From: a virus
IMG/VR virus record: IMGVR_UViG_3300021062_000026
Location: 1 to 45,184 of that record
DNA: 45,184 bases
Reading direction: 5' to 3' (one strand)
Shown piece by piece: positions 8,444-39,862 of this stretch; positions within the stretch are counted from its first letter, which is position 1, and every line of letters starts with the position of its first letter. A program made the translations under genes and the position numbers. Below the pieces are notes generated by a model. That model saw nothing but the letters and a program-made list of their open reading frames with translations, made no database searches and had not been told where the DNA came from.

Positions 8444-8472
8444 TTGTCTGATCCGTCTACCTTTCCTAGTTG
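8444..8472 (+). promoter_or_regulatory. Class 2 promoter giving a leaderless mRNA (accessory operon)
   Basis: TTGTCT (8444-8449) is followed by a 17-nt spacer ending CTTTCC and by TAGTTG (8467-8472). The spacer end and the TAG of the -10 match the sites at 31808 and 39507. The expected start at about 8479 falls on the GTG start codon at 8478, and no Shine-Dalgarno sequence can lie upstream within such a transcript. Confidence 0.65.
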
Positions 8473-8477
8473 CAACG

Positions 8478-8792
8478 GTGGCGACATACCCCATCGGTAG
8501 TGTAGGCTCCCCGTCCGTGGGCGACGCCGCCACGCAGCCAGGCTCGGGGCACGACCCCGTGAGCCGCCCCTCGCACTACACGCGAGGGAAGATCGAGGTC
8601 CTGGACTTCATCGAGGACCAGAAGCTCGCCTACCACCTCGGCAACGTCATCAAGTACGTCTGCCGCGCCTCCTACAAAGGACGGGAGATTGAGGACCTCA
8701 GGAAGGCGCGCTTCTACCTCGACCGGCACATCGCGCTCCGGGAAGCCGAGAGCGCCGAGCGCGAAAGCATCGAAGGCCCCTCCGGGCTTTGA
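8478..8792 (+). CDS. DUF3310 family protein (T7 gp1.7 nucleotide kinase-related)
   Basis: This 104-residue protein contains the DUF3310 signature: SRPSHYTRGKIEVLDFIEDQ, then LAYHLGNVIKYVCRASYKG and a helical, charged end (EIEDLRKARFYLDRHI). The family includes T7 gp1.7, described as a nucleotide kinase, and many uncharacterised phage proteins, so a role in nucleotide metabolism is possible. It is the first gene of a rightward four-gene operon. The GTG start lies directly on the expected transcription start of the upstream promoter, predicting leaderless translation. Confidence 0.82.
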   Translation: MATYPIGSVGSPSVGDAATQPGSGHDPVSRPSHYTRGKIEVLDFIEDQKLAYHLGNVIKYVCRASYKGREIEDLRKARFYLDRHIALREAESAERESIEGPSGL

Positions 8793-8793
8793 C

Positions 8794-9027
8794 GTGGCCT
8801 CGTGGGCGCGGGGATTCGAGCCCGCGCGACCCACGAAATGCGAGACCTGTCGCCTTCCCGAGGCGGCCGAGGGCATCCGGATCGCCCTGGAGATGCGCGC
8901 CCGGGGCGAGTTCAAGGGCAAGGTGCGCTCGATCTACCGGATGGCGTGCGAGCAGTTGGGCTACCCCTACAAGTACACGGCCTTCCACTCGCACGTCCAC
9001 AACTGCCTCGGCGGGCTGGGCACTTGA
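8794..9027 (+). CDS. Small Cys/His zinc-binding, DNA-binding-like protein
   Basis: This 77-residue protein begins at GTG 8794, 1 nt after the previous stop; no other usual start codon lies in frame near it. It has KCETCRLPEAAEGI (about residues 15-28) and a C-terminal HSHVHNC, so two Cys and two or three His could hold a zinc ion. The middle helices resemble the small phage proteins with CxxCxLP and a helix-turn-helix that often accompany phosphoesterases. Its stop overlaps the TTG start of the next gene by TTGA. The exact function is unknown; a DNA-binding regulator is the best guess. Confidence 0.7.
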   Translation: MASWARGFEPARPTKCETCRLPEAAEGIRIALEMRARGEFKGKVRSIYRMACEQLGYPYKYTAFHSHVHNCLGGLGT

Positions 9028-10103
9028 AGAAGCCCCGCTTCGACGTTGCGAAGTGGGCCCGCGAGGAGGGGAACACCGAAGCCCTCGACATTCTCCACGC
9101 CCGGCTCAAGCGCGGCGGCCGCATCCCCTTGGCGGAGGTCGCGGCCGAGATCGGTTGCTCGCGGGGCGCCGTGATCGACCTCTGCGACGCGCTCGTCGAG
9201 CAGTCGCTCAACGTCAAGGTCCACGGGGACGTGATCGTCCTCGTGCGCAAGCCGGCCCCGCGCACGCTCGAAAACCTCAAGTTCATCTCGGACAAGAACG
9301 GCCGGCACCGATTCGGGATCATCTCGGACACCCACTACGGGTCGAAGTGCGCGCGCGAGGACGTAGCGACCGACCTCTACGACTGGTTCGCCTCGGAGGG
9401 GATCGAGAACGTCCTGCTCGCCGGGAACTGGATCGACGGCGAGGGCCACGACAACGACCACGAGCTCTTGCCCGACTGCCACGGGCTCCAGCCGCAGGTC
9501 GACTATTTCGTCGAGAACTTCCCCGAGAAGAAGGGCATCACGACGTGGTTCGTCTCCGGCGACGACCACGAGGGCTGGTACGCCAAGCGCGAAGGGATCG
9601 ACGTCGGGCGGCTGCTCGTCAGCTCCGCGCGCGAGTACGGGCGCCACGACCTGCGCGACTGCGGCTACAAGGAGGCCTTCTTCTCGCTGGAGCACGCGAA
9701 GACGGGCGCCTCGTCCAAGCTCTGGCTGGACCACCCCGGCGGCGGCAGCGCGCACGCGACGAGCTGGACGATGCAGAAGATCGTCCGCTCGCTCCAGCCC
9801 GGCGAGAAGCCCGCGATCATGTGCAGCGGGCATCTCCACAAGCTCATCTACTTCATCGAGCGCGGGGTCCACGTGATCGGCGCCGGCTGCACCAAGGACC
9901 AAGACACCTGGGGCCGCAAGAAGGGGCTCCAGTACGACGTGGGCGGCTGGATCATCGAGCCGCGACAGGACGAGCGGGGCGCGGTCGTCGAGGTCAAGAC
10001 GGCCCTGCGGCAGTGGTTCGACCGGGGCTACTACAACGGCGCCTTCAACATGGCCGGGCCGATCCGGAAGGTGCGCGCGCCGGGCGGGAGAGCGAAGCGG
10101 TGA
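9024..10103 (+). CDS. HTH-calcineurin-like metallophosphoesterase
   Basis: This 359-residue protein combines an N-terminal winged-helix-like segment (IPLAEVAAEIGCSRGAVIDL, residues 34-53) with a calcineurin-like phosphoesterase domain. The metal motifs appear in order: D-T-H (102-104), GNWIDG (134-139, with Asn replacing the first Asp of the usual GDxxD), GDDHE (179-183) and GHLHK (269-273). Such enzymes hydrolyse phosphodiesters or nucleotides using two metal ions. TTG at 9024 is taken as start because it overlaps the previous stop (TTGA) and the protein then opens KKPRFDVAKW, similar to the reading just before its neighbour. The HTH suggests action on DNA, but the substrate is unknown. Confidence 0.87.
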   Translation: MKKPRFDVAKWAREEGNTEALDILHARLKRGGRIPLAEVAAEIGCSRGAVIDLCDALVEQSLNVKVHGDVIVLVRKPAPRTLENLKFISDKNGRHRFGIISDTHYGSKCAREDVATDLYDWFASEGIENVLLAGNWIDGEGHDNDHELLPDCHGLQPQVDYFVENFPEKKGITTWFVSGDDHEGWYAKREGIDVGRLLVSSAREYGRHDLRDCGYKEAFFSLEHAKTGASSKLWLDHPGGGSAHATSWTMQKIVRSLQPGEKPAIMCSGHLHKLIYFIERGVHVIGAGCTKDQDTWGRKKGLQYDVGGWIIEPRQDERGAVVEVKTALRQWFDRGYYNGAFNMAGPIRKVRAPGGRAKR

Positions 10104-10408
10104 AGCGCGCCGCGCTCCGTCGCGACCTCGCGGTCCTGCGCAAGCGCGTCCCGCCCATGTGGCCCGTGGTCGTACGGCGCCGGGCCCTCAAGAAGCGCTG
10201 GGGCTCCTGCTCTTTCCACAGAGAGTCCACGCCGCACTTCGCGATCTCGCTCGATCCGACGCTGGAGGGCGACTTTCTGCGCTGGACGTTACTTCACGAG
10301 TGGAGTCACGCCTTGAGTTGGACCAGCGAGCACCCGAGCGTAGCCGATCACGGCCCGGAGTTCGGGCTCGCCTACGCGCGGGTCTACTCGGCGCTGATCG
10401 AGCCCTAG
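10100..10408 (+). CDS. Minimal SprT/YgjP-type zinc metallopeptidase
   Basis: This 102-residue protein carries the HExxH zinc motif (HEWSH, residues 66-70) and a third likely ligand in HGPEF (His 84). A preceding RWGSCS (33-38) is characteristic of the SprT-like/YgjP (DUF45) group. It is shorter than cellular members, close to the catalytic core alone. The GTG start overlaps the phosphoesterase stop (GTGA), so the two are translationally coupled. Cellular SprT-type enzymes process DNA-protein crosslinks; by analogy this one could strip proteins from phage or host DNA, which is inference. Its TAG overlaps the stop of the convergent gene within one CTAG. Confidence 0.8.
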   Translation: MKRAALRRDLAVLRKRVPPMWPVVVRRRALKKRWGSCSFHRESTPHFAISLDPTLEGDFLRWTLLHEWSHALSWTSEHPSVADHGPEFGLAYARVYSALIEP

Positions 10409-10680
10409 GGCTTCTCCTCGGGCGTGGGCGCGGCGTCGTCGGTGTCTCTGCCGATCGACTGTAGCGCGAAGGACAGGTACTCCTTCTCCACGGCGCCGAG
10501 CTTGTCCAGCAGCTCCAGCACCGCGCGCGCGAGGGCGGGCTCGCGGTGGGCTGCGGCGATGACCCACGGTGCGACTGTGACCTCTCCATGCTCGTTCAGC
10601 GCAGCGACCGCTCGCGCATGCACGGAGTGGTCATCCGCGAGCGCCGCCTCGGCGAGCTTCCGGATCTCGGCTCGGTCCAT
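10405..10680 (-). CDS. Small helical hypothetical protein (last gene of leftward operon)
   Basis: This 91-residue, mostly helical acidic protein begins MDRAEIRKLAEAALADDHSV and ends TDDAAPTPEEKP. The ATG overlaps the stop of the upstream secreted-protein gene by one base (TGATG). Its stop shares the CTAG with the convergent metallopeptidase gene. The repeated helix pattern (AVAALNEHGEVTVAPWVIAAA, AVLELLDKLGAVEKEY) could be HEAT-like, but no family is recognised and no catalytic motif is visible. Confidence 0.65.
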   Translation of the reverse strand: MDRAEIRKLAEAALADDHSVHARAVAALNEHGEVTVAPWVIAAAHREPALARAVLELLDKLGAVEKEYLSFALQSIGRDTDDAAPTPEEKP

Positions 10681-11222
10681 CACTGGAAGGATACCGTCCC
10701 GTTCACCGTCACCAAGCACCCGTGCTGCGTCGCGAGCGCGCCCGTGGTCCCGGAGATGCCCGTGGGGCTGTCCGTGGCGCGGATCCAGAGCACGACGCGG
10801 CGTCCCGCCCAAGGAGCCGCCGGGCCGCCGCTGGAGGCGCTGTAGAGTCCCGAGAGCAGCGCCGAGCCCGAGCTCGGACCCGCGAAGTCGATCGTCCCGT
10901 CCCAGACGGAGAGGCCAGCGAACGAGGTCGCAGGCGCGCCCACGCTCGCGGAGACGAGCGCCGAGGCCCCGATCCCGACCTCGACCTTGGCCGTCGCGGG
11001 AGCGAACGTCGCGGTGCCTCCGGTCAAGAGCGAGAGGTTCTCGACGGCGCGCCAGCGGTCGGCCTGGCCGTCGATCGAGATCAGCGCGCTCGTGGCTCCG
11101 GGGTTCGGCCCGGCGATCGTCACCGTGGCGGTCTCGCCGACGTTGAGCGTGGCGGAGAAGGTGCGGGTCTGCGCGGGGGCGAGCGGGGCGAGCAGGAACA
11201 GGGCGAGAAGCAGTCGGGTCAT
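10680..11222 (-). CDS. Secreted beta-rich hypothetical protein
   Basis: This 180-residue protein has a clear signal peptide (MTRLLLALFLLAPLAPAQ, cleavage likely near residue 17) and a mature part rich in Gly, Ala, Ser and Thr with alternating hydrophobic residues. That suggests an exported beta-sandwich protein. No cysteine pair or enzyme motif is apparent. It sits inside an early-type leftward operon of small proteins, an unusual place for a secreted phage product. It may change the host envelope or act as a lysogenic conversion (moron) protein; this is inference from the signal peptide and location only. Confidence 0.7.
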   Translation of the reverse strand: MTRLLLALFLLAPLAPAQTRTFSATLNVGETATVTIAGPNPGATSALISIDGQADRWRAVENLSLLTGGTATFAPATAKVEVGIGASALVSASVGAPATSFAGLSVWDGTIDFAGPSSGSALLSGLYSASSGGPAAPWAGRRVVLWIRATDSPTGISGTTGALATQHGCLVTVNGTVSFQ

Positions 11223-11265
11223 GGTCTCTCTCAGGGAACAGGGTTAGGGGAAGCCACGGTGTCTC

Positions 11266-14353: not shown

Positions 14354-14973
14354 CGTCCCTCCTCCCGCGCGCGATGGGCGCGCAGAGCGTCCCAAGCCAC
14401 GAGAATCGCTCGCGCCTGTGCCATCGAGATCAAGCCATCCACGAGCCACGATCGGCGATGCTCCAACTCAGGGCCGGGCGACAGTTGTTCGAGAACATCC
14501 ATCGTCCCCAACCGCGCGATGACGGGCTCGCAGGCTTCCGCAAAGGCGCGATGGGCGCGCAGCTCGGCCAGCAGGGCGGGGAGCGCGTTGCGGGCCGCGA
14601 TGAGCAGGTCCATGTCCGCCTCGCGGCAATCGAGGTCGGAATGCCCGTCCCACGGGTGCCGCGTCGGCGTCAGGACACTCGTCGTCTGGTCCGTGCGTCC
14701 GATGCGGCGCCACGAACAGCTATCCCAAAGCATCCACGGCGCGGGCGTCGCCGCCTTCTCCAGCCGCTCCAGTTCCTCCAGGTCCCCGCGCTCTCCGGGC
14801 TCGGGAGAGGGGGCCGAGAGAGCGGCGCGGAGGGCTTCCATCCTCTCTTCGCGCTCTTGCGAGGCAAAGAACTCGGCTTCGGAGATCGGCCGCCCTTTGA
14901 GCAGCTTGGATAGCGCGTCGTCAGCTTCCAGGACGTCCCGCGCCGCTTCGCGGAGAGAGGGGCGCTCGCTCAC
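14350..14973 (-). CDS. Ead/Ea22-like phage protein
   Basis: This 207-residue protein contains the pattern seen in Ead/Ea22-like phage proteins: LERLEKAATPAPWMLWDS, then a variable loop, then ADMDLLIAARNALPALLAEL and a helical end. In relatives the motif is usually ATPGPW followed by an AARxALPALLxEL helix. Such proteins are common in early, dispensable regions of temperate phages, and their molecular function is not established. The GTG start 14973 overlaps the upstream stop, continuing the coupled series. Confidence 0.7.
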   Translation of the reverse strand: MSERPSLREAARDVLEADDALSKLLKGRPISEAEFFASQEREERMEALRAALSAPSPEPGERGDLEELERLEKAATPAPWMLWDSCSWRRIGRTDQTTSVLTPTRHPWDGHSDLDCREADMDLLIAARNALPALLAELRAHRAFAEACEPVIARLGTMDVLEQLSPGPELEHRRSWLVDGLISMAQARAILVAWDALRAHRAREEGR

Positions 14974-15655: not shown

Positions 15656-15656
15656 G

Positions 15657-15941
15657 TCAGGACGCTCCTTCCCCGCGGGCCTGGGAGAGCGACTCGGGCA
15701 CGGCTCCGGTTCGACGCACGAGGCAGTCGAGCACGTCAACGAGCCCCAGCTCGTCCCGCCGCACGACCACGTAGCTATCCCCGCTTCGGCGTCCGGCGTA
15801 GCTCTGTGCAGGATCTTGACGGAGTTCGCCCAGCATCTCGGCAACCCACTTGTCCCGCTCGTCCTGACTGATCGGAAAGGCGCCGTCGCGCTCGTCCCAC
15901 TCGACGGCCCACGCCTCTCCCGTCCCCGTCCTCTCGTCCAT
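15657..15941 (-). CDS. First gene of the leftward operon, hypothetical
   Basis: This 94-residue protein (MDERTGTGEAWAVEWDERDG) is followed directly by the next gene. The start ATG 15941 has a perfect AGGAGG 8 nt upstream (15950-15955) and a class 1 promoter upstream of that, so it opens the transcription unit running to 10405. The sequence is acidic with a helical end (ELGLVDVLDCLVRRTGAV). It resembles no family known to me. As the first early gene it may be highly expressed after induction. Confidence 0.7.
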   Translation of the reverse strand: MDERTGTGEAWAVEWDERDGAFPISQDERDKWVAEMLGELRQDPAQSYAGRRSGDSYVVVRRDELGLVDVLDCLVRRTGAVPESLSQARGEGAS

Positions 15942-15964
15942 CGCTCGTGCCTCCTGTGCGCTCT

Positions 15965-15993
15965 ACTCTATCGGCGCGCCCGATGCGTTGCAC
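15965..15993 (-). promoter_or_regulatory. Class 1 early promoter/operator, leftward operon
   Basis: On the minus strand GTGCAA (15993-15988), a 17-nt spacer and TAGAGT (15970-15965) are followed by AGGAGG and ATG 15941. TTGATT lies further upstream (16005-16000) and includes the stop codon of the 39-residue gene. The block closely matches the one before 24317: the CGCATCGG and GCGCCGATA stretches and the ribosome site are conserved at the same spacing. A common repressor is likely. Confidence 0.65.
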
Positions 15994-16001
15994 CAGGAAA
16001 A

Positions 16002-16121
16002 TCAAGTTTTCGGGACACTAGGAACCGGAGTCGGGACGGGCGCGGGCTGCTCCGGCGGGGGCTCGTCTTTGAACAGCTCGCCGGGGTCCTGGTACTCCTC
16101 GGGCCCTTTGCGCGGGCTCAC
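16002..16121 (-). CDS. 39-residue acidic proline-rich peptide
   Basis: A GTG at 16121 overlaps the stop of the upstream 25-residue frame (GTGA) and opens a 39-codon frame beginning VSPRKGPEEYQDPGELFKDE and ending in a Pro/Val-rich tail. The coupling pattern matches the neighbouring genes, which supports real translation. Its stop lies inside the TTGATT element of the next promoter. Function unknown. Confidence 0.5.
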   Translation of the reverse strand: MSPRKGPEEYQDPGELFKDEPPPEQPAPVPTPVPSVPKT

Positions 16122-22561: not shown

Positions 22562-22738
22562 ATGCCTCACATCGCCTCCAAAGCCGACAAGCCGAAGCGC
22601 GGTCCGAAGCCCGAAACCCTCAAGCTGGAGGGTTCGTGGGAGGACGCCATCGGGCGAGCGATTCGCAAGCCGCGCCCGGCAGGCGGTTGGCCAGCCAAGA
22701 CCAAGCCCGCCAAGGCCCCGAAGGGCAAGAAGTCCTAG
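22562..22738 (+). CDS. Basic protein, paralogue of the gene on the other side of the transposase
   Basis: This 58-residue protein contains KRGPKPETLKLEGSW and RKPRPAGGWPAKTKP and ends KGKKS. It is clearly related to the minus-strand protein at 23319-23534 (KRGPKPATLKLTGDW, RKAKPAGGWPPATK). The short basic RGPKP looks like an AT-hook-type DNA contact. The stop shares a CTAG with the stop of the convergent transposase. The two paralogues point towards the transposase from both sides. No function is known to me. Confidence 0.66.
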   Translation: MPHIASKADKPKRGPKPETLKLEGSWEDAIGRAIRKPRPAGGWPAKTKPAKAPKGKKS

Positions 22739-23370
22739 GCCGGCTTCTTCCGGACCGACGCCCGGTAGATCAGGCGCTTGCCCTGCGCCTTGCGAATCGC
22801 GAGTGCGGTCCGTGCGCCGTCGTCCATCTTCCGGTTCGTATAGCGGAAGGCGAATTCCGAGGCGTAGCGGTGCAGGTGGTGGCGGCTGACGCTGTGGTAC
22901 ACGCCGGTCAGACCGCGCTTGAAGATCGCGAAGAAGGACTCGGCCGTGTTCGAGTGAACGTCACCCCGGACGTATTCGCCTTGGCTGTGATTGACGCTGT
23001 GATGCCCGCCCGCGAATTGAACTCCGACGCCTGGGTACCCCTTGTAGCTGTCGGTCATAATCCGCGCAGACGGGGCGACGTTCTGCCGGATCGCCTGCTG
23101 GAGATTGAAGCTCGTAACGCGGTCGATCGGGAAGGCGCGAGCCGCGCCGCCGCGCTCAACCAGGACCATAACCGGGGCCTTTTGGAACGGGCCGATCTTG
23201 CCGCGCCCGTGCTTATTCCGTGGCTTTCCACCAACAAAAGTCTCATCAACTTCAACGGTCCCGGTGAGCTTCGGTGGGGTCGCGGGGTCCTCCGCCATCG
23301 CGAGGCGGATGCGGTGCATCATGAAAAGGGCCGACTGGTAGGAGAGGCCCGTCTGCCGCTTGATCTCCAT
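22735..23370 (-). pseudogene. IS1595/ISXO2-type transposase lacking its N-terminal domain
   Basis: This 211-residue frame contains the DDE catalytic core of the ISXO2 group: VEVDETFVGGK (Asp 42), IMTDSYKGYP (Asp 107) and VHSNTAESFFAIFKRGL (Glu 144). The family markers HHSVNHSQGEYVRGD and SRHHLHRYASEFAFRYTNR are also present. Full-length members are about 300 residues and begin with a zinc-ribbon domain. Here the frame begins at the helix before the core (MEIKRQTGLSYQSALFMMHR), so roughly 85 residues are missing and the upstream bases belong to a small basic gene. No terminal inverted repeats were confirmed. It is probably an inactive remnant, unless a frameshift supplies another N-terminus. 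Confidence 0.8.
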
Positions 23371-23899: not shown

Positions 23900-24184
23900 C
23901 TACCCCTTCGGCGGCCTGGGGTCGTCCGTAAGCCCACCGAGGTAGTCGGTCGAGGTCTGGAAGACGACCGCCATCTTCTTGACGATGGCGAAGCCCGGGT
24001 CGGGGACGGCGTTGTGTATGTAGCGCGAGAGCGCGGCCTCGTTGATGTCGAGGTGGTAGGCGGCCTCGCGGCGCTTCCAGGCCCGGGCCTCGATCCGTTC
24101 GAGGACGCGGGCGCCGATCAGGACCGAACCTTCGGCGGCGGGGGGGCGTCCGCGGGGGCGCTTGGTTGTCTTTCTCGTTGCCAT
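23900..24184 (-). CDS. HTH repressor candidate (CI-like lysogeny regulator)
   Basis: This 94-residue DNA-binding protein has an N-terminal AT-hook-like tract (KTTKRPRGRPPAAEG) and a helix-turn-helix of the Cro/C1 type (AAYHLDINEAALSRYIHNAV, about residues 42-61), followed by VPDPGFAIVKKMAVVF. It is transcribed away from the rightward early operon, the standard position of a temperate phage repressor. The class 1 operator-like block lies upstream of the divergent gene. Its own promoter puts the transcription start about four bases before the ATG, recalling the leaderless lambda cI message. There is no obvious cleavage domain, so induction may not depend on RecA. Confidence 0.75.
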   Translation of the reverse strand: MATRKTTKRPRGRPPAAEGSVLIGARVLERIEARAWKRREAAYHLDINEAALSRYIHNAVPDPGFAIVKKMAVVFQTSTDYLGGLTDDPRPPKG

Positions 24185-24223: not shown

Positions 24224-24265
24224 GCGGAGCGGGGCGGCGGCCTGCCCGAATCCTTGATTTCTCCG

Positions 24266-24294
24266 TTGCACCGCATCGGTTGCGCCGATACAGT
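24266..24294 (+). promoter_or_regulatory. Class 1 early promoter/operator, rightward operon
   Basis: TTGCAC (24266-24271), a 17-nt spacer and TACAGT (24289-24294) are followed by AAGGAGG (24302-24308) and ATG 24317. TTGATTT lies upstream at 24254-24260. An imperfect inverted repeat (GCACCG, CAT, CGGTTGC) covers the -35 and spacer. The block matches the one at 15965 and partly the one at 27792, suggesting common repression by the divergent HTH protein. Confidence 0.65.
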
Positions 24295-24316
24295 AGGGCG
24301 CAAGGAGGCAACGCCG

Positions 24317-24592
24317 ATGACGACCGACCTAGACCTGCGCGGGATGCTCGCGACCAACCACTACGACCCGCCCGAGGCCACGATCCGCTCGGGCGGGTGC
24401 GAGGTCACGGTGACGATGGTGCTCACCCTGGACGTGGACCAGGACGGCGACCTGCGCCCGGTCGAGTGCAACAGCCTGCCGGTGCGGGGCACGGCGGGGG
24501 CAACGATCCTGCGCTACCTGGACCTCAAGGAGCTGAAGTCGCTCGCGCAAGCCGAGCTCGCACGGCTGGAAGGTGAGGTCCGCGGTGCGTGA
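24317..24592 (+). CDS. First rightward early gene, hypothetical
   Basis: This 91-residue protein begins MTTDLDLRGMLATNHYDPPE. It has a beta-rich middle (RSGGCEVTVTMVLTLDVDQD) and a helical end (DLKELKSLAQAELARLEGEV). The start is fixed by AAGGAGG 8 nt upstream and by a class 1 promoter. It overlaps the following gene by eight bases. As the first gene after the divergent repressor it occupies the cro/early-regulator position, but no HTH is visible. Function unknown. Confidence 0.68.
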   Translation: MTTDLDLRGMLATNHYDPPEATIRSGGCEVTVTMVLTLDVDQDGDLRPVECNSLPVRGTAGATILRYLDLKELKSLAQAELARLEGEVRGA

Positions 24593-25240: not shown

Positions 25241-26152
25241 ATGGCTACGAAGCTGAAAGCGCGCGATCCCAAGATCGTGCAGCCGGGGCACTGCAAGGGG
25301 CTGATCTTCGGCCCCTCGGGCGCCGGCAAGACGTGGTTCGCTCTCTCGTTCCCACGTCCCTACTACATCGACACCGAAGGCGGCGCGGACCTGCGCCACT
25401 ACCAGGCCCGGCTCCAGGAGGCCGGAGGCGCCTACATGGGGCAGGAGGACGGGTCGCTCAACTTCGACACCGTGCTCGACCAGGTGCGGGCGCTCGCGAC
25501 GGAGAAGCATCCCTACCAGACGCTGATCCTCGACAGCGCGACGAAGCTCTACCAGACGACGATCGCGAACGAGGCCGACCGGCTGGGCTCAAAGGACGCC
25601 TTCGGGGCCTCCAAGAAGCCGGCCATCGCCTACATGCGCCGGCTCGTCGCCTCGATCCAGCGGCTCCACATGAACGTGTGGTTCATCGCGCACGAGGTCG
25701 CGGAGTGGGGCATGGTCGGGGAGCAGCGCCAGGAGGTCGGGCGGGCCCCGGACGTCTGGGACAAGCTCGTGTACGAGCTCGACCTCACGCTCCAGGTGAA
25801 GAAGCTCGGCAAGGGCCAGCGCGAGGCGGTGGTCTACAAGTCGCGCCTCGTGGGCTTCCCGGAGTTCGACCGCTTCTACCTCCAGCGCAACGGGGAGGAG
25901 TGCGGGTACGACGAGTTCTCGTCGCGCTACGGCAAGGACTACATCGAGGCCGAGTCCGAGCCGATCGAGCTGGCGACGGCGGAGCAGGTGGCGGAGATCA
26001 AGCGCCTGCTGGAGGTCGTGCGGGTGCCCGAGACGGCGATCGAGAAGACGCTCTCGGCGGCGCGCGCGGAGACGTGGGAGGACCTGACCCGTGAGCAGGC
26101 CGAGAAGACGATCAACTGGCTCTTGAGCAAGGTGCAGAAGGAGAGTGCGTGA
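25241..26152 (+). CDS. RecA-like phage ATPase (AAA_24/Sak4-like recombination protein)
   Basis: This 303-residue protein has a Walker A motif GPSGAGKT (residues 24-31), then PRPYYIDTEGGADLRHYQ. A Walker B-like LILDSATKLYQ follows near residue 90 and an FIAHE sensor-like motif near 150. The layout matches the phage RecA-like core group that includes Sak4 single-strand annealing proteins. A C-terminal helical domain (ATAEQVAEIKRLLEVVRVPE) resembles the tail seen in several such proteins. It would use ATP to act on single-stranded DNA during recombination-dependent replication or repair. The next gene encodes an SSB-like protein, its usual partner. Confidence 0.83.
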   Translation: MATKLKARDPKIVQPGHCKGLIFGPSGAGKTWFALSFPRPYYIDTEGGADLRHYQARLQEAGGAYMGQEDGSLNFDTVLDQVRALATEKHPYQTLILDSATKLYQTTIANEADRLGSKDAFGASKKPAIAYMRRLVASIQRLHMNVWFIAHEVAEWGMVGEQRQEVGRAPDVWDKLVYELDLTLQVKKLGKGQREAVVYKSRLVGFPEFDRFYLQRNGEECGYDEFSSRYGKDYIEAESEPIELATAEQVAEIKRLLEVVRVPETAIEKTLSAARAETWEDLTREQAEKTINWLLSKVQKESA

Positions 26153-26706: not shown

Positions 26707-27549
26707 ATGATGAAACCGAACGTCGAAACCGTGACGCCCGCTCTGGCCGCGAAGTGGCTGGAGTCGAACATCGGGAACCGGCCCGTGCGCCACGCTTGGG
26801 TCCAGGTCCTGGCGCAGATGATGCGCGCGGGAGAGTGGACGGTCACGCACCAGGGGATCGCCTTCGATCGCACGGGGAGACTGGTGGACGGCCAGCACCG
26901 CCTCCTCGCCGTGATCGAGGCGGATCGCTCCGTCAGCATGCTGGTCACTCGCGGCCTCGCCCCGGAGGTCTACCGTCACCTGGACGGCGGGCGCTCGCGG
27001 TCGATCTCGGACCGGATCTCGCTGCTGGACGACTTCAAGGAAAACACGCTCGTCACGGCGCTCGTCCGGGCCTACCTCGCGTGCGCGATGGGCGGGCACA
27101 CCGGGGTCTCGATCAACGCCGTCGAGGAGCAATTCCTCAAGATGCCGGGGCCCTTCACGGCCGTCGCCAAGGCCTTCAACAAGGCCAACTCGCGCGGTCT
27201 GACCCGGGCCCCGGTCGGCGCGGCCATCGCGTCCTACATGCACGCGCACGAGCCCGAAGCCCGAGACTTCCTCGCGGCCTTCACGTCGGGCGAGGGCCTC
27301 TCGGCCGGCTCCCCGATTCTCACGCTGCGGGACGCGCTCCTGCTGCGCCCCCAATTCATGCGGACGGCGCACGAGGTCTACTGGAAGGCGACGACGGCGT
27401 GCCGTGCCGCGTACGAGGGCCGCACCATGGCCCGCCTCTGGCCGGACACCACCGACTGGCAAGACAACCGCTACGAGCGTCTCGTCCAGGAGCGCAGCGC
27501 GAAGGCCAAGCGGGCCGCGCACACGCGCTGGAGCCGCGTCGCCGTCTAG
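26707..27549 (+). CDS. ParB/sulfiredoxin-fold phage protein
   Basis: This 280-residue protein contains the motif of a common phage family related to the ParB nuclease/sulfiredoxin fold: VTPALAAKWLESNIGNRPVR, AGEWTVTHQGIAFDRTGRLV, then DGQHRLLAVIEADRSV. The DGQHRL box is the family equivalent of the ParB catalytic or nucleotide-binding GxxR region. The rest is helical with a basic end (AKAKRAAHTRWSRVAV) able to contact nucleic acid. In ParB relatives the fold binds CTP or ATP. Here the role is unknown, possibly DNA binding or nicking during replication. Confidence 0.78.
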   Translation: MMKPNVETVTPALAAKWLESNIGNRPVRHAWVQVLAQMMRAGEWTVTHQGIAFDRTGRLVDGQHRLLAVIEADRSVSMLVTRGLAPEVYRHLDGGRSRSISDRISLLDDFKENTLVTALVRAYLACAMGGHTGVSINAVEEQFLKMPGPFTAVAKAFNKANSRGLTRAPVGAAIASYMHAHEPEARDFLAAFTSGEGLSAGSPILTLRDALLLRPQFMRTAHEVYWKATTACRAAYEGRTMARLWPDTTDWQDNRYERLVQERSAKAKRAAHTRWSRVAV

Positions 27550-31687: not shown

Positions 31688-31779
31688 GAGGGAGAGCCTT
31701 TCGGGGGTTCTGCCGGCGCCTCCTGGCCGCTCGCTCGTGCTCGGCTACGACCCACGAGGGCTTGGGGCCCGGCGCGCTC

Positions 31780-31836
31780 ATCCTACCACATATGGGGCGC
31801 TAACGGGTTGACAACGGGACCCTAACTTCCTAGCTT
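31780..31836. promoter_or_regulatory. Divergent late control element 1
   Basis: Rightward: TTGACA (31808-31813), a 17-nt spacer ending CTTCC, and TAGCTT (31831-31836), with the expected start at about 31843, next to GTG 31844. Leftward: TGG then TAGGAT (31785-31780), an extended -10 towards the fibre gene. ACCACAT lies between them. The same parts in the same order occur at 39480-39535. Confidence 0.65.
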
Positions 31837-31843
31837 CTACAGC

Positions 31844-32098
31844 GTGACCGACGCCACCCCCTCGGCCGTCGAGCGCCCGCTCGCGACCGTGTCGGAGATC
31901 GCTGCCGCCGAGCGGCTCATCTCCCAGGACCAACCCCTCCCGGTCGATCTCTCGCGCGCGCTCCTGAAGGAGCTGCACCGGCTCAAGCGAGCCGCAGGCG
32001 AGGGAGGGAGCCTCTCGGGCCGGCTCTACCAGGAGGACGCCTCGGGCCCGTCCTGGACCCGGAACCTGGACGCCGAGGCGGAGAGTTACCCGAGGTGA
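31844..32098 (+). CDS. First late gene, small helical protein
   Basis: This 84-residue protein begins (GTG) TDATPSAVERPLATVSEIAA and is helical with a basic middle (SRALLKELHRLKRAAGEGGS). Its position before the terminase genes and the predicted DNA- or partner-binding helix fit a packaging accessory, but no family is recognised. The GTG is on the expected transcription start. The stop overlaps the next GTG. Confidence 0.65.
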   Translation: MTDATPSAVERPLATVSEIAAAERLISQDQPLPVDLSRALLKELHRLKRAAGEGGSLSGRLYQEDASGPSWTRNLDAEAESYPR

Positions 32099-32466
32099 CC
32101 GAGCCTCAAGAACAGGCCAGCGGACGCCCGCTCCCGCCTGTCGAGACGCGCTTCAAGCCGGGTCAGTCGGGCAACCCCGGCGGTCGCCCGCGCGGCGCCT
32201 CGGTCCTCGCCCCGCTGCTGCGCAAGCTCGCCGCCAATCCCAACGAGCACGGCGAGGGCGCCGAGGCCAATGCCGCCGCCGAGACCATCCTGGCTCTCCT
32301 GCGCCAAGGCAACGGCAAGGAGCTCACGGGCCTGTTGAAGATCCTGGACCGCACGGACGGCCCGGTGCCCAAGGACGTGAACCACGGCGTGCAGGAGGGC
32401 TGCACGGTCGAGATCCACGGGGTCAAGGTCACCAAGCCCCCGCCGATGCCGGAGGACGCGGGGTGA
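32095..32466 (+). CDS. Small terminase-like protein (DUF5681-type N-terminus)
   Basis: This 123-residue protein contains ETRFKPGQSGNPGGRPRGAS, the basic DUF5681 signature found at the start of many phage small-terminase-like and packaging proteins. A helical middle (HGEGAEANAAAETILALLRQ, LTGLLKILDRTDG) and a basic tail follow. It lies two genes before the large terminase, with overlapping starts and stops, and may recognise phage DNA and pass it to the large subunit. Assignment as the small subunit is from motif and position. Confidence 0.72.
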   Translation: MTEPQEQASGRPLPPVETRFKPGQSGNPGGRPRGASVLAPLLRKLAANPNEHGEGAEANAAAETILALLRQGNGKELTGLLKILDRTDGPVPKDVNHGVQEGCTVEIHGVKVTKPPPMPEDAG

Positions 32467-32699
32467 GCCGCCGCTGCGACTACTGCGGGGCGGTCAGCAC
32501 GGCGGGCCGGGACAAGTGCCCCAACTGCGGGGCGGCCTATCTCTGCGAGCCGACCCAGGCCCCCGCCGGGCCAATCAGCACCTACCTGGACTTCCTCGCG
32601 GCCACCGGCCCGGTGCAGTTCAGCGACACGTACAACGAGCTGGTCCGTCGCTCTCGCTCGCTCGCCGGGATCGTCTTCCCCGTCGGGGAGTCCGCGTGA
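32463..32699 (+). CDS. Zinc-ribbon protein between terminase genes
   Basis: This 78-residue protein opens RRCDYCGAVSTAGRDKCPNC, two CxxC pairs forming a zinc ribbon, and continues with a helical part (GPISTYLDFLAATGPVQFSD). It is coupled to both neighbours by GTGA overlaps. A packaging or regulatory partner role is likely but unproven. Confidence 0.7.
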   Translation: MSRRCDYCGAVSTAGRDKCPNCGAAYLCEPTQAPAGPISTYLDFLAATGPVQFSDTYNELVRRSRSLAGIVFPVGESA

Positions 32700-34201
32700 T
32701 CTCCGCCCCCGAGCGCCCGCGCCTGCGGGTCGAGCTGCGCGGCGCCCCGCTCCAGCTCATGGAGGCCCTCGCCGGCTACGAGGGGCCGCCCAAGATCCTC
32801 GAGTACCTGCTCGACGGCCCAGGCGGGACCGGCAAGTCCCGAGGCGTCGCGCACGTCCTCTTCTGGCTCGGCTACCAGTACCCGGGCATCCGCATCATCG
32901 TCGTGCGCAAGACGCGCGCGTCGCTCACGGAGAGCTTCTGCAAGACCTGGGAGCAGGACGTGGTCCCCGCCGGCCACGCGATGCTGAACGGGCCCCGCCG
33001 GCTCAACCGCCACAGCTACGACTTCGGCAACGGCTCCGAGCTGATCCTGGCAGGGCTGGACACCGACACCCGGCTCTACAGCACCGACTACGACGTCTGG
33101 TACGTCCAAGAGCTGATCGAGATCAGCCTGGACGAGCACGAGAAGGCCCGTCGAGCGCTGCGCAACTGGAACGGCGAGCGTCGTGGCACGCCCGGCGCGA
33201 TCCCCTTCCAGCTCCTCGTCGCGGACACCAACCCGCACGTCCCCTGGCACTGGGTCAACAAGCGCTACGCCCCGAACGGGCCCTACCCCCGCCTGGAGTC
33301 GAGGCACTGGGACAACCCGGCGCTCTACGACGCGGCGCGGGAGCGCTGGACCCCGGAGGGCGCGGCGTACATCGAGTCCCTCTCGAAGCTCACCGGCCCC
33401 CGCCGCGAGCGTCTCTACAAGGGCAAGTGGCACCAGGCCGAGGGCTTGGTGTGGTCGAGCTACGACCCGGCCGTCCACCTCGTGACCCGCTCCGAGGTCC
33501 CGGAGATCGGCTGGCACTTCGCCTCGCAGGACTGGGGCTTCACGGCTCCGGGCGTGCTCCAGATTTGGGGCGTCGCGAAGGGGACCGGTCACCTCTACCG
33601 CCTGCACGAGGTCTACCGCCGGGGCGAGAACGTCAACTGGTGGGCGGCGCGCGTGGGCGAGTACCACAAGCGCTACGACCTGCGCCGGGTGATCTGTGAC
33701 CCCGAGGACGCGGACGCGATCTCGATCTTCAACGAGCACCTGGGGACGCCTGCGGGCAACCACGAGCCGATGGCGCGCATCGCCCAGCCGGCGAACAACA
33801 AGCGCGCGAGCTCGGGCGTCGGGGACATCGGGGGCCTGGACCTCGTGCGGCAGTACCTCGCCGAGCGACGTCTCTTCCTGGTGCGCGACGCGAACGAGCA
33901 CGTCGATTTAGGCCGCCCCAGCGAGGGCATCCGCGGCCTCTCGGACCTCGGCCTGCCCGACCGCACCGAGCAGGAGGTCGAGGGCTACGTCTTCAAGAAG
34001 CGCTCATACGGCCAGCTCGCGGCGAAGTCGGGCGAGCGGGAGATCGACCTCACGGACGACTCCGTGCCCGACCACGGCTGCGACGCGCTGCGCTACGCGG
34101 TGATGTTCGCTCACAACCGCGACCTCTCCGACCCTCCCCCGCCCAAGCGGTTCCCCCCGAACTCCCGGGGCGCGCTGTACGGGCACGATCTCTCCGACTG
34201 A
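32696..34201 (+). CDS. terL: Terminase large subunit
   Basis: This 501-residue protein is the packaging motor: an ATPase that drives DNA into the prohead and a nuclease that cuts it. The N-terminal ATPase has Walker A GPGGTGKS (residues 41-48) and a Walker B-like stretch DYDVWYVQELIE (about 137-148). The C-terminal RNase H-like nuclease has an acidic residue in ASQDWGFT (about 278-285), CDPEDADAISIF in the middle and the final acid in DHGCDALRYAVM (about 458-469). The GTG at 32696 overlaps the zinc-ribbon stop. Domain order and length are normal for phage TerL. Confidence 0.93.
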   Translation: MISAPERPRLRVELRGAPLQLMEALAGYEGPPKILEYLLDGPGGTGKSRGVAHVLFWLGYQYPGIRIIVVRKTRASLTESFCKTWEQDVVPAGHAMLNGPRRLNRHSYDFGNGSELILAGLDTDTRLYSTDYDVWYVQELIEISLDEHEKARRALRNWNGERRGTPGAIPFQLLVADTNPHVPWHWVNKRYAPNGPYPRLESRHWDNPALYDAARERWTPEGAAYIESLSKLTGPRRERLYKGKWHQAEGLVWSSYDPAVHLVTRSEVPEIGWHFASQDWGFTAPGVLQIWGVAKGTGHLYRLHEVYRRGENVNWWAARVGEYHKRYDLRRVICDPEDADAISIFNEHLGTPAGNHEPMARIAQPANNKRASSGVGDIGGLDLVRQYLAERRLFLVRDANEHVDLGRPSEGIRGLSDLGLPDRTEQEVEGYVFKKRSYGQLAAKSGEREIDLTDDSVPDHGCDALRYAVMFAHNRDLSDPPPPKRFPPNSRGALYGHDLSD

Positions 34202-34209
34202 GGCGAACC

Positions 34210-34278: not shown

Positions 34279-34282
34279 GTCC

Positions 34283-35341: not shown

Positions 35342-37336
35342 ATGCTCTCCACCGAGCTCAAGTCCCTCTGGCAAGAGGTCGAGGCCGCGATCCAGTTCCA
35401 GGACCGCCGCACCAAGAACGTCAAGGTGATGGTCGAGCGCTACACCTCGCCCTTCTACTGGGGCGACGAGCGCACCGGGGACTACGACCCCGTCAACCAC
35501 GCCTTCGAGTTCATCGGCCTCACCAAGGCCGAGAGCGTCTACGACAACCCGCGCTGGATGGCGAAAACCAAGCGCGGCTCGGACTACGCCCTCATCGCCG
35601 AGGCGATCCAAGGCGGGCTCAACCGCTGGACGAAGGACGTTTCGCTCGACGAGCTGCTCGGCAAGTTCTACGACGACCAGTGCTTCTTCTACCCGGTCGC
35701 GTGCATCGTCCAGCGTCCGGTCCCGGGCTTCGACCAGGGCAAGCAGACGAGCGTCCGCCATAAGCCGGCGATCCAGCGCGTCTCGTTCCGGCGCTACTTC
35801 CGCGACCCGCTCGCGATCGACGAGGAGGAGTGCCGGTTCGAGGGGCACACGACGATCCGGGACAAGGAGGACCTGCTCCTCGAAGCCAAGCAGAACCCCG
35901 ACGCCGGCTGGAACGTCGAGGCGATCGAGGCCCTCGCGACGGGCGTGGGCTTGGACAAGCTCCGCAAGAAGGACGACTCGCTCAAGAGCCCCGACCGCAA
36001 GGAGATCGTCCTGCACCACGTCTGGATCCCCGAGTGGCATCCGCCCGTCGGGGACCCTCTGTGGAGCGAGGTCCCGGAAGAAGACTGGGACTGCTACCAC
36101 GGCGGCATCTTCACGATCGCCGAGGGCGGCAAGGAAGCCGGCGGGACGGCACCGATGGCCTTCGTGCGCGCGCCCCAATGGTTCTACGGGCACGAGTCCG
36201 GCCCCTATGCCACGGGCGGCGAGTTCAACGTCCCCGACGAGACGGTGCCGCTCTCGGGCTTCCTCGCGATCGAGGGGCAACTGCGCGAGGTCAACGCGCA
36301 GGAGAAGGCGCGGCTGCAAGCCGACCGCCGGCGCAAGACGCTCGGCTTCGTCAGCCACAAGAGCGACAAGCTCCAAAAGGCGGTCGCGGAGGCCGCGGAC
36401 GGCTCGATCGTCCCGATGGAGATCGACGACGTGCGCACGGGCATCGTGGCTGTCCCGCTCGGCGGCTCGTCGCCCGAGCAGCACGTCACCTGCGACGTCC
36501 TCGACCAGCGCCTGCGTCGCACGTCGGGCATCTCCGACACGGCGGCGGGCCAGCCGAACAGCGACGTCACCGCGACCGCCGAGGCCGTGGCCGACAAGGG
36601 TTCGACCGCGCGCGCCGCGTGGCGCAAGCGTCAGTTCGCCAAGTTCGTGAAGAAGATCGGCCTCAAGGTCGCCTACCTGCTCTACCACGACGACAAGGTC
36701 GTGATGGCCTCCGACGAGGAGGGGGGCACGTTCTACGGCGGCAGCCCGAACATGCACGAGCAGGCGATGGCCGCGGAGATGGCCCCGCAGGTCGTCCAGT
36801 TCCTGGAGTCGATCGGCGCGCCCCCGGAGCAGATCCCCGAGCTCGTCCCGCAGCTCATCGCGGCGTCCCTCCAGAAGCTCCAAGAGCTGCACGCCAACGC
36901 CTCGTTCTCCGACCTGGACCTCGACATCGAGCCGCAGAGCATGGAGCGCGTCTCCGAGGCGCAGGCGCAGCGCAAGGCGATGACGCTCGGTGGCATGGTG
37001 ATGCAGGTGGCGAGCGCGGCTCCGACGATGCCGCACTTCCGATCCAAGCTGTTCCTGGACGACTTCGGTCGCGCCTGGGACGAGCCCGAGCTCGGCAAGT
37101 ACCTCGACGAGGAGATGCTCGCCCTCCAGGGCGCCCTCGCGGCGGCGCAGCCGCAGCTCGCGACGGGGATGGGCTCAGGGCCAGGCCAGCAAGGCGGGAT
37201 GGCCCGGCCGCAGATGCAGAGCAACGTCGCCCCGGCGGCGCGTCCGCAGCTTCCCCAGCGCGCGGGCCCGTCGCGGCAAGGGGCCCCGGGTCAGAGCGCG
37301 GGCGCGAAGGCGGCGAAGTCGCAGATGGTGGCCTGA
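35342..37336 (+). CDS. Portal protein
   Basis: This 664-residue protein is probably the dodecameric ring at the capsid vertex through which DNA passes. It is recognised by position (after TerL, before scaffold and capsid), size and pattern: a helical N-terminus (LKSLWQEVEAAIQFQDRRTK), a conserved-looking QRVSFRRYFRDPLAIDEEEC near residue 140, a long helical stem (AIEGQLREVNAQEKARLQAD) and TSGISDTAAGQPNSDVTATA before another long helix. The C-terminal part (after about 590) is Gln/Pro/Ala-rich and disordered, as in many podovirus portals. No motif is diagnostic alone, so the call rests on context. Confidence 0.83.
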   Translation: MLSTELKSLWQEVEAAIQFQDRRTKNVKVMVERYTSPFYWGDERTGDYDPVNHAFEFIGLTKAESVYDNPRWMAKTKRGSDYALIAEAIQGGLNRWTKDVSLDELLGKFYDDQCFFYPVACIVQRPVPGFDQGKQTSVRHKPAIQRVSFRRYFRDPLAIDEEECRFEGHTTIRDKEDLLLEAKQNPDAGWNVEAIEALATGVGLDKLRKKDDSLKSPDRKEIVLHHVWIPEWHPPVGDPLWSEVPEEDWDCYHGGIFTIAEGGKEAGGTAPMAFVRAPQWFYGHESGPYATGGEFNVPDETVPLSGFLAIEGQLREVNAQEKARLQADRRRKTLGFVSHKSDKLQKAVAEAADGSIVPMEIDDVRTGIVAVPLGGSSPEQHVTCDVLDQRLRRTSGISDTAAGQPNSDVTATAEAVADKGSTARAAWRKRQFAKFVKKIGLKVAYLLYHDDKVVMASDEEGGTFYGGSPNMHEQAMAAEMAPQVVQFLESIGAPPEQIPELVPQLIAASLQKLQELHANASFSDLDLDIEPQSMERVSEAQAQRKAMTLGGMVMQVASAAPTMPHFRSKLFLDDFGRAWDEPELGKYLDEEMLALQGALAAAQPQLATGMGSGPGQQGGMARPQMQSNVAPAARPQLPQRAGPSRQGAPGQSAGAKAAKSQMVA

Positions 37337-37339
37337 TCC

Positions 37340-38068
37340 ATGACGAAGACCGGCGCTCCCAAGAAGTTCACCCGTCTCGGCTACCCCGACTCCAGCCAGG
37401 AGCAGGAAGACCTCTCGGCGATGGGGATCGAGAACGTCGGCGGCGCCTACGGGCCCTCCGACATCGTCCGGCCCCAGTTCGACCGCTTCTGGATGCTCAC
37501 GGGCGAGGAGCCCAGCGGGAACTACGAAACCGGCTTCACGATCACGACCGCGGACAACCCGACCGGGGTGATCCTGGGGGCCGCCGAGGTCTGGGATCCC
37601 TCGTTCGAGCGTGGCGGGTTCATCGAGGGCTCGTTCTTCGGCAAGTGGACGAACATCTCGGCCGGGGACGTCATCACGCTCAAGCTCCAAGTGAACGACA
37701 TCGCGACCTCGACGAACAAGATCCTCGACCACACGGCGAACGCCGGATCGGCGATCACCTTCGTGGACGTGTTCTCGGCCGCGACGGCCTCGATCGTGAA
37801 CCACGCGGACCCGGGCTACGTGGACCTGCGCTTTCGCTTCTACAGCGAGGGCAAGACGGCGCAGGGCTACGTGGTCGAGAGCCGGATCCTGCGCGGCGGG
37901 ACGTTCACCGGGCCGACGCTGATCGGCATGGGCGAGACGGCGATCAACCACGAGTTCGACTCGGGTTGCCGCCTCTACCGAGTCGTCGCCAGCGTGGCGC
38001 ACGCGAGCACGACGTGGCTCGTGCGGTCCTCCTGCGGGTTTCAGCACGGTATCCGATACGGCCACTAG
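37340..38068 (+). CDS. Beta-rich structural protein candidate
   Basis: This 242-residue protein follows the portal by 3 nt and is strongly beta-like (ETGFTITTADNPTGVILGAA, GYVDLRFRFYSEGKTAQGYV), consistent with a jelly-roll or fibre-type virion protein. The N-terminus (KKFTRLGYPDSSQEQEDLSA) may attach it to the capsid or portal. The function, perhaps decoration or adsorption, is inferred from composition and neighbours. No family is recognised. Confidence 0.68.
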   Translation: MTKTGAPKKFTRLGYPDSSQEQEDLSAMGIENVGGAYGPSDIVRPQFDRFWMLTGEEPSGNYETGFTITTADNPTGVILGAAEVWDPSFERGGFIEGSFFGKWTNISAGDVITLKLQVNDIATSTNKILDHTANAGSAITFVDVFSAATASIVNHADPGYVDLRFRFYSEGKTAQGYVVESRILRGGTFTGPTLIGMGETAINHEFDSGCRLYRVVASVAHASTTWLVRSSCGFQHGIRYGH

Positions 38069-38077
38069 TCCGCGCCC

Positions 38078-39160
38078 GTGTCGGCGCCGCCCCTCGCACC
38101 CGCCATGCCCAACGCCTTCACCGACGCCTACCAGCACCCGTCGAACCTGACGCACAAGTACATCCGCTACGCCAAGCACCCATCGACGGTCTGCACGGTC
38201 TACCGGCACCCGACGAACTGGGACGCGGTGGGCGGGAACCCGTGCCTCCTCGTCTTCCACGCGGGCTCGTGGGTCTCGGTCGGCTGGGACCAGGACCTCT
38301 TCAACTTCAACAGCCCGTTCACGCCCAACCGCGGGCACCACGTCGTCGCGGCCTCGCTGCTCGATCCGAAGTACGGCTACAGCTCGACGACGATCGACAA
38401 GACCAAGCCGGCCTTCACGCTCGTCTCCTGCGAGTATCCGCAGGCGGCGTCGCTGGCGGGGAAGCCGACCTACCCCGACTACGGCTACTGGGGCGATCAG
38501 GCGGCGATCGGGCGCGCGGTCCAGTACTTCAAGGACAACGGCTGGCGCTGGGGGATCAACAAGGACCTGATCTTCACCTGGGGGCAGTCGGCCGGCTCGT
38601 GCAACGGCATGGTCAATCTGCTTTCGCCGTCGCTGCCGTTCCTGCCGAACTACCGCGCGGGGTCGCGCTGGGATCGCTACTCCAGCTCGCGCGTGGCCGG
38701 GCACCTGAACTGGTACGGCGAGATCACCTGCGTGGGCGAGGAGTACAACTACACGTCGGGGGTCTACGCGAACCCGGCGGGCACGAACGCGGGTCTCTTC
38801 GGGGACATCCCGGCCTCGCAATCGGACTGGTCGGAGCACAACATCGTGCCGCTCTCGATCCAGAAGCGGTCGAGCCCGATGTACCTCTTGGGCCTCAAGC
38901 GCAAGGAGAACGTCGGGCTCTCGATCCTGAGCTTCTACGCCCAGAGCGAGGACAACAACAACTCCGGCCACGACCCCAAGCAGTTCCCCGTGCTGGCGGC
39001 GGCGTGCGCGGAGGCCGGGGTCAACCACCAAGGCCGGATCGTGGCCACGAACGGGGTCACGGACTTGGGGCAGACGATCGGGGAGACCTACGCCTGGCTG
39101 AAGGGTCTGGTCGAGCAGGCGGACGCCTACCGGGTCGGGCTGGCGCCGGCGGGGTTCTAG
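38078..39160 (+). CDS. Alpha/beta hydrolase (esterase-like) in the head module
   Basis: This 360-residue protein has features of the BD-FAE/carboxylesterase-type alpha/beta hydrolases: a strand and oxyanion region NPCLLVFHAGSWVSVGWDQD (about residues 55-74), DQAAIGRAVQYFKDNGWRWG, then the nucleophile elbow GQSAGS (Ser near 171). A likely acid and His follow in the C-terminal third (EDNNNSGHDPKQFP). It would remove acyl groups from a sugar or lipid, for instance deacetylating surface polysaccharide. There is no signal peptide. GTG 38078 or ATG 38105 can start it. Such a gene between portal and scaffold is unusual; it may be a virion-attached depolymerase. Confidence 0.78.
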   Translation: MSAPPLAPAMPNAFTDAYQHPSNLTHKYIRYAKHPSTVCTVYRHPTNWDAVGGNPCLLVFHAGSWVSVGWDQDLFNFNSPFTPNRGHHVVAASLLDPKYGYSSTTIDKTKPAFTLVSCEYPQAASLAGKPTYPDYGYWGDQAAIGRAVQYFKDNGWRWGINKDLIFTWGQSAGSCNGMVNLLSPSLPFLPNYRAGSRWDRYSSSRVAGHLNWYGEITCVGEEYNYTSGVYANPAGTNAGLFGDIPASQSDWSEHNIVPLSIQKRSSPMYLLGLKRKENVGLSILSFYAQSEDNNNSGHDPKQFPVLAAACAEAGVNHQGRIVATNGVTDLGQTIGETYAWLKGLVEQADAYRVGLAPAGF

Positions 39161-39161
39161 G

Positions 39162-39230
39162 GGTGGGCGCGGGATTCGAACCCGACCTACGGAGCCACAT
39201 TCCGACGCTCTACCGTTGAGCTACGCCCAC
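39162..39230 (-). tRNA. tRNA-His(GTG)-like gene
   Basis: The 69-nt gene has a 7-bp acceptor (GTGGGCG with CGCCCAC), a D arm (GCTC-AACGGTA-GAGC), an anticodon stem with one mismatch, loop ATGTGGC (anticodon GTG, His), a 4-bp T stem (CGGG-TTCGAAT-CCCG) and C73, the histidine discriminator. The extra G at position -1 needed for histidylation is T in the DNA, and the T stem is one pair short. It lies antisense, one base after the esterase-like gene. Confidence 0.75.
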
Positions 39231-39251
39231 AGTTCGGGCGCCATCTTACCG

Positions 39252-39470
39252 CTAAATGGCGGCCACGACCATCGCCTCGCGCGGCCCCACGGCCAGCCGG
39301 GAGCCCCCGCAGACGAGGCAGTCGTAGGCGATCTGGATGTCCCGCCCGGCCCCTAGGGCGCGGCCGTAGCGCATGTAGCCGTGGGCCTCGCAGGCCGGGC
39401 AGGGCCGCTCTCCGGGCTGGTACTCGCGGGGCGGGAACAGGGAGACGTAGGCACTAGGGGTAGGGGTCAT
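39252..39470 (-). CDS. Small double-CxxC zinc-finger protein
   Basis: This 72-residue protein has two zinc pairs in a DnaJ-like arrangement: RPCPACEAHGYMRYGRALGA and AYDCLVCGGSRLAVG. ATG 39470 lies ten bases from the leftward -10-like TATGGT, so the message is almost leaderless. It is the only protein gene on the minus strand within the head module. A regulatory role at the adjacent divergent promoter is an attractive but unproven idea. Confidence 0.68.
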   Translation of the reverse strand: MTPTPSAYVSLFPPREYQPGERPCPACEAHGYMRYGRALGAGRDIQIAYDCLVCGGSRLAVGPREAMVVAAI

Positions 39471-39479
39471 CGGCCGGCA

Positions 39480-39535
39480 ACCATACCACATCTTGTGGTC
39501 TCCGGGTTGACAACGGGGACCTATCTTCCTAGCAT
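39480..39535. promoter_or_regulatory. Divergent late control element 2
   Basis: Rightward: TTGACA (39507-39512), a 17-nt spacer ending CTTCC, and TAGCAT (39530-39535); the expected start coincides with GTG 39542. Leftward: TGG then TATGGT (39485-39480), an extended -10. A perfect inverted repeat ACCACA-TCT-TGTGGT (39486-39500) sits just upstream of the rightward -35 and may be an operator. Confidence 0.68.
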
Positions 39536-39541
39536 CTCCCC

Positions 39542-39862
39542 GTGCCCGGCACCTACGAGTTCGCGGACGCCCGCGGCAAGGTGGTCGAGCTGGTCCTGGA
39601 GCCCAGCGAGGCCCCCCGCATTGGGGACCCCCTCGTGGTTGACGGCCGGACCCTGACGCGGATCGCGTCCCTGCCCGAGGTGAAGAAGCCCAAGGACTTC
39701 TTCCACGTCGCGCACTCCCTCCACCGCTGGCACCCCGACGCGCCGAGGCACACGGCCGAAGGCAAGCCCGTCTTCTGCACCAAGCGGGAGATCGAGAACT
39801 TCCGGGCCAAGGACGAGGCCCGCACGCAAGGCAAGCGCCAGCTCGCCTTCGACCCCTCATGA
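39542..39862 (+). CDS. Small conserved-looking phage protein before the scaffold
   Basis: This 106-residue protein opens (GTG) PGTYEFADARGKVVELVLEP and continues RIGDPLVVDGRTLTRIASLP, a pattern like small FmdB/zinc-ribbon-type phage proteins whose cysteines have been lost. The C-terminal part (HRWHPDAPRHTAEGKPVFCT) has a helical, charged end. It is the first gene after promoter 2 and overlaps the scaffold gene by ATGA. Its start is on the expected transcription start. Confidence 0.7.
   Translation: MPGTYEFADARGKVVELVLEPSEAPRIGDPLVVDGRTLTRIASLPEVKKPKDFFHVAHSLHRWHPDAPRHTAEGKPVFCTKREIENFRAKDEARTQGKRQLAFDPS

Follow-up and report, generated by a model that had tools for sequence, protein, structure and literature searches.

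Leaderless genes, defined by a 5′-UTR of 0–5 nt (PMC5784534), account for ~19% of actinobacterial genes and for 39% of those in Deinococcus-Thermus, and in both groups a TANNNT motif lies ~12 bp upstream of the start (Zheng 2011, PMC3160421). In M. tuberculosis they make up a quarter of the genes with a primary start, they use GTG and ATG in much the same proportions as leadered genes do, and a purine is the first base of 85% of transcripts (Cortes 2013, PMC3898074); in C. diphtheriae the leaderless proportion is 20%, including 1/6 of the mapped prophage starts (PMC5784534). Among phages, the cI and cro mRNAs of Lambda and PY54 are leaderless (PMC4488713), and most middle and late mRNAs of the Thermus phage phiYS40 have been reported to be so, in connection with an increase of IF2 and a decrease of IF3 (as reviewed in PMC3594737).

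The phage genome studied here probably expresses two operons, one for packaging and one that is likely to encode the capsid, from leaderless mRNAs of this already known kind; for a third operon such a start is uncertain. As in the leaderless genes of Actinobacteria and Deinococcus-Thermus, the first T of TANNNT is placed 12–13 nt before the start codon (13 and 12 bp before the GTG at sites 31808 and 39507, respectively), both GTG and ATG are used, and no Shine-Dalgarno (SD) sequence precedes them (PMC3160421, PMC3898074, Zhong 2025 PMC12340547). In contrast with those host genes, the promoters here are phage-borne, head packaging and capsid operons, and possess a clear -35 TTGACA that many host promoters lack. 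The likeness to phiYS40, as far as the review describes it, consists in a leaderless class (predicted here) for virion and packaging genes next to other operons with SD leaders, although the phiYS40 leaderless mRNAs were measured and tied to IF2/IF3. Lambda and PY54 likewise offer phage transcripts that begin on the start codon, but the genes concerned there, in enterobacterial phages, encode regulators and start on AUG, in contrast to the packaging and capsid operons here, which start on GUG. Because leaderless mRNAs are a well-known habit of the likely host bacteria, we see here sound biology but no new mechanism. An earlier note on this DNA had suggested that such starts would give the phage a remarkable means of timing or protecting its translation, a view that we found unsupported, given that leaderless genes, those with GTG among them, are commonplace in Actinobacteria and Deinococcus-Thermus and that phiYS40 is a reported precedent.

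The window, that is, the whole stretch of DNA analysed, measures 45,184 bases with 69% GC and represents a virus record from a phage so far seen in metagenomes only. A near-identical contig, IMGVR_UViG_3300020202_000172 (the twin contig), joins its end to its start by 3,121 extra bases, and therefore the genome is most likely a circle or circularly permuted, with a size of ~48.3 kb. These bridging bases (L019 4924–8044) lie mostly inside a long ORF of ~1,430–1,470 aa (L019 3003/3190 to 7406/7473); they contain no copy of the promoter motif described below, and their single TANNNT falls within the long ORF. A megablast search with the window yielded no match among known phages. The large terminase is nearest to actinophage terminases and its best-covered known matches come from Thermobifida and Streptomyces phages, so that an actinobacterial host is likely, not proven, and Actinomycetota is the most likely host phylum. 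Unlike the terminase, the integrase and the giant protein encoded at 1957–7056 give no indication of an actinobacterial host. The C-terminal half of this 1,699-aa protein (plus strand) has relatives (~31%) among the large proteins of phages from Vibrio and Escherichia; its first ~110 residues recur, with 40–75% identity, in many other environmental phages. Near the integrase, the phage also contains an ISXO2/IS1595-type transposase gene (22735–23370, minus strand).

The promoters at 31808 and 39507 (promoters 2 and 3), the first gene behind each and the motif facing away from each are as follows:

31808..31836, plus strand: promoter 2, TTGACA (31808–31813), 17 nt, TAGCTT (31831–31836), followed by GTG 31844
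31844..32098, plus strand: packaging operon gene 1, GTG 7 nt past the -10; product of 84 aa without a family match
31780..31788, minus strand: opposed extended -10 TGGTAGGAT beside promoter 2, the reverse-strand reading of the shared TACCACAT
39507..39535, plus strand: promoter 3, TTGACA (39507–39512), 17 nt, TAGCAT (39530–39535), followed by GTG 39542
39542..39862, plus strand: probable capsid operon gene 1, GTG 6 nt after the -10; 106 aa, no family
39480..39488, minus strand: opposed extended -10 TGGTATGGT beside promoter 3, with a predicted in-frame ATG start at 39470, 9 nt on

Both promoters have exactly the sigma-70/sigmaA-type form (TTGACA, 16–18 nt, TANNNT), and they are identical at 31 of 35 bases, with the consensus TTGACA, 17 nt, TAGCWT and a GTG 6–7 nt further on; the window contains no further copy of this element. 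Of the three TTGACA strings in the window, two belong to these promoters, and TTGACA-N17-TANNNT is found twice against 0.0096 expected occurrences. The string TA.CTT.?CC occurs on both strands exactly three times, at sites 8444, 31808 and 39507, with TAG directly after each, and ~0.012 occurrences of TANCTT(N)CCTAG are expected. Outside the 35-bp core, promoters 2 and 3 agree mainly in TACCACAT, 23–24 nt upstream. GTTGACAAC constitutes a dyad spanning the -35, and the two promoters share much more of the sequence separating their hexamers than a sigma-70-type promoter requires. Since TGGTAGGAT and TGGTATGGT occupy the same relative place at the two promoters, the shared element is possibly bidirectional. 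A scan for the element motif in IMG/VR and 85,000 species genomes retrieved the twin contig and, apart from it, nothing but unrelated accidental matches. A tRNA-His gene (39160–39230, minus strand, Rfam 56.7 bits) runs against the direction of the late genes and follows a short Cys-rich ORF (39252–39470).

The gene starts come from a calling procedure that used only codon statistics and start-codon type, was seeded with the longest plausible ORFs and ignored promoters. The hexamers, their spacing, the absence of an SD and the choice of start can all be read directly in the letters. The coordinates and letters that the earlier note gave for sites 8444, 31808 and 39507 were all correct when re-read in the sequence, as were the distances: counted from the final base of each -10, the first base of the GTG at 8478, 31844 and 39542 comes 6, 8 and 7 nt later, with 5, 7 and 6 nt in between. 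In-frame stops are present at 8436, 31823 and 39530, and the stretches from these stops to the GTGs contain no start codon; at promoters 2 and 3 earlier starts are impossible because the stop lies inside the promoter itself (TAA at 31823; at 39530, the TAG that opens the -10). Coding statistics are positive or rising from the first codons after GTG 31844 and GTG 39542. No SD-like string was detected 4–18 nt before 31844, 39542 and 8517, nor was an SD visible by eye before 8478; SD-like strings precede 25 of 39 inner genes versus 8 of 31 operon-head genes. TANNNT is found 6–8 nt upstream of four called starts (7625 on the minus strand, 8517, 31844 and 39542), all of them operon heads, and of none of the inner genes. 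When starts were randomly shifted upstream, a mean of 0.23 had TANNNT at 6–8 nt and four were never reached in 2,000 trials (p ≤ 0.0005). Likewise, the TTGACA (≤2 mismatches)-TANNNT pairs on both strands number nine, four of which have a called gene start 6–8 nt downstream. One leaderless-type start, the fourth, was absent from the earlier note:

7623..7662, minus strand: TTGCCC, 18 nt, TAGGAT, 7 nt, ATG 7625 (gene 7419–7625)

Neither this start nor the one at 8517 belongs to a virion gene. The latter competes with GTG 8478 at site 8444, where two registers can be drawn:

8444..8480, plus strand: site 1 in the register of the earlier note, TTGTCT (8444–8449), 17 nt, TAGTTG (8467–8472), 5 nt, GTG 8478
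8503..8519, plus strand: rival to site 1, -10 TAGGCT (8503–8508), 8 nt, in-frame GTG 8517 (DUF3310 gene 8517–8792)

The kinship of three promoters proposed in the earlier note thus holds well for 31808 and 39507 but weakly for 8444. In an ungapped comparison with the core of the other two, site 8444 agrees at 14 of 29 positions, and unrelated sequence reaches 17–18; it has CTACCTTTCCTAG in common with them only if one inserted T (CTTTCC) is allowed. It carries two -35 mismatches, its -10 TAGTTG is devoid of the conserved final T, and TAGGCT offers a better -10. The first T of the -10 lies 11 bp before GTG 8478 (no T at the sixth base) and 14 bp before the rival GTG 8517. Coding statistics favour GTG 8517, and in the longer form beginning at 8478 the DUF3310 domain begins only at residue 28. 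As a leaderless promoter, site 8444 is the weaker candidate and may be mis-registered. It heads the DUF3310 (nucleotide-kinase-like) gene, followed by those of a 77-aa protein and a metallophosphoesterase-like protein, none of them structural.

After its first gene, the packaging operon continues with the overlapping genes 32095–32466 (DUF5681), 32463–32699 (78 aa) and 32696–34201, the large terminase (phrog_2, E 1.9e-20). In the other operon, the second gene (39859–40863, 334 aa) has no matches, and the protein encoded at 40888–42072 (394 aa) is the probable major capsid protein. This role relies on gene order and on a weak match (E 0.017) between its homologue in L069 (30% identity) and a family of major head proteins, because the structure predicted for the candidate was uninformative (pLDDT 30.5). 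Most downstream genes in both operons either share a 4-nt overlap with the gene before them or have ordinary SD sites.

A contrasting promoter class is represented by a pair of twins:

24266..24319, plus strand: TTGCAC, 17 nt, TACAGT, 22-nt stretch with AAGGAGG, ATG 24317
15939..15993, minus strand: GTGCAA, 17 nt, TAGAGT, 23-nt stretch with AGGAGG, ATG 15941

From these letters, the operons at 24317 (plus) and 15941 (minus) look leadered. The former contains a Sak4-like gene (25241–26152). The two operon heads, in opposite orientations, have ~60 nt in common, with a partial GCGCC..GGCGC dyad over the -10. The twin promoters (24230–24319, plus, and 15939–16030, minus) are candidate operators of the HTH protein encoded at 23900–24184.

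The best explanation, in which we have considerable confidence, is that promoters 31808 and 39507 give rise to leaderless mRNAs starting at the GTG. The main RNA polymerase of the host would recognise both as copies of a single promoter, TTGACA-17-TAGCWT corresponding to the actinobacterial/deinococcal TANNNT type. The polymerase would start ~7 nt after the -10, on the G of the GTG or at most two bases away, so that the packaging and probable capsid mRNAs would have no leader, and host ribosomes adapted to such mRNAs would load directly on the 5′-terminal GUG. At promoter 3 the gap between -10 and GTG is purely pyrimidine (CTCCCC), which we counted as support beside the purine-start preference of M. 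tuberculosis transcripts. What we infer from the DNA is that the promoters are active, at which base the RNA starts, that translation is leaderless, that expression is late and to which phylum the host belongs.

The same conservation could instead be due to a phage late activator or repressor, if the 35-bp element mainly served to bind this protein and transcription started elsewhere, with leaders. A spacer conserved beyond promoter needs, the GTTGACAAC dyad across the -35 and the extra TACCACAT upstream would suit such a protein, and two late operons under co-regulation would require a site of this sort. However, the core retains consensus hexamers and exact 17-nt spacing, TACCACAT takes the form of an extended -10 when the opposite strand is read, and the in-frame stops within the element, together with the lack of an SD, leave no space for a normal leader at the called starts. 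We consider this alternative unlikely, although a protein-binding site and a leaderless promoter are compatible and both can be true. Starts further downstream are much less probable still: the next in-frame GTGs, 45 nt on (31889) and 39 nt on (39581), would imply a 40–45-nt leader, but neither is preceded by an SD and coding statistics are positive from the first codons of the longer forms. A purely accidental likeness in promoterless high-GC sequence fits site 8444 only (14/29 ungapped, -10 without final T), and deserves hardly any credence for the others, since ~0.01 occurrences are expected versus two or three observed, all directly before gene starts.

Beyond the preferred leaderless reading of promoters 2 and 3, one may speculate, with little confidence, that promoters divide the operons into two translation classes, the SD-leadered twins on the replication side versus leaderless GTG operons for packaging and capsid that share a conserved, regulated, bidirectional 35-bp element, and that a shift in host translation initiation during infection could favour virion proteins. 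For uncultured high-GC phages, start-codon prediction and promoter finding can be done jointly: TANNNT 6–8 nt before GTG marks operon heads and yields transcription start, start codon and promoter together. If measured, leaderless late expression would extend from Thermus phages to another phage lineage.

Among related IMG/VR phages, the motif pattern was found only in the near-identical twin contig, and searches for relatives of the capsid candidate, the 35342–37336 protein and the G001 portal and terminase retrieved only self or twin copies. The earlier note had anticipated that the spacing between -10 and GTG would be kept in relatives, which proved to be the case in G001 (IMGVR_UViG_3300048597_000294; 61.9 kb, 68% GC, 78 called genes) but not in G002 (IMGVR_UViG_3300033067_000484), the one with homologous head genes. 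G001 shares the integrase (39%) and the 26707–27549 protein (47%); the terminase is not shared and the head module is unrelated. TANNNT occurs within 60 nt upstream of a G001 start only five times, four of these at 6–7 nt, namely before the terminase (TAGGAT-6-GTG), the portal (TAGGCT-6-GTG) and two ATG genes, versus 0.28 expected in the same random-shift test. G002 shares the terminase, the 35342–37336 protein (a probable portal) and the capsid candidate at 25–33% identity; none of its gene starts has the TANNNT-start signature, and its capsid candidate has an SD-like GGAG. Since G002 has homologous terminase and capsid genes and is devoid of the signature, the architecture does not travel with head genes; judging from these genomes, the signature is one that tracks lineage or host. 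Other high-GC phage loci had only a slight enrichment (4 vs 2.1), the general leaderless signal being weak. With the G001 parallel added to position, in-frame stops and absence of SD, the leaderless operon starts claimed in the earlier note stand up for the terminase and the probable capsid, and stay uncertain for the non-structural operon at 8444. In G003, a phage with a related terminase (L155/L156), we observed a repeated extended -10 of the form TGGTATGAT GGCCGTAGGCCA on the minus strand, at 14646, 15205, 17001 and 22868.
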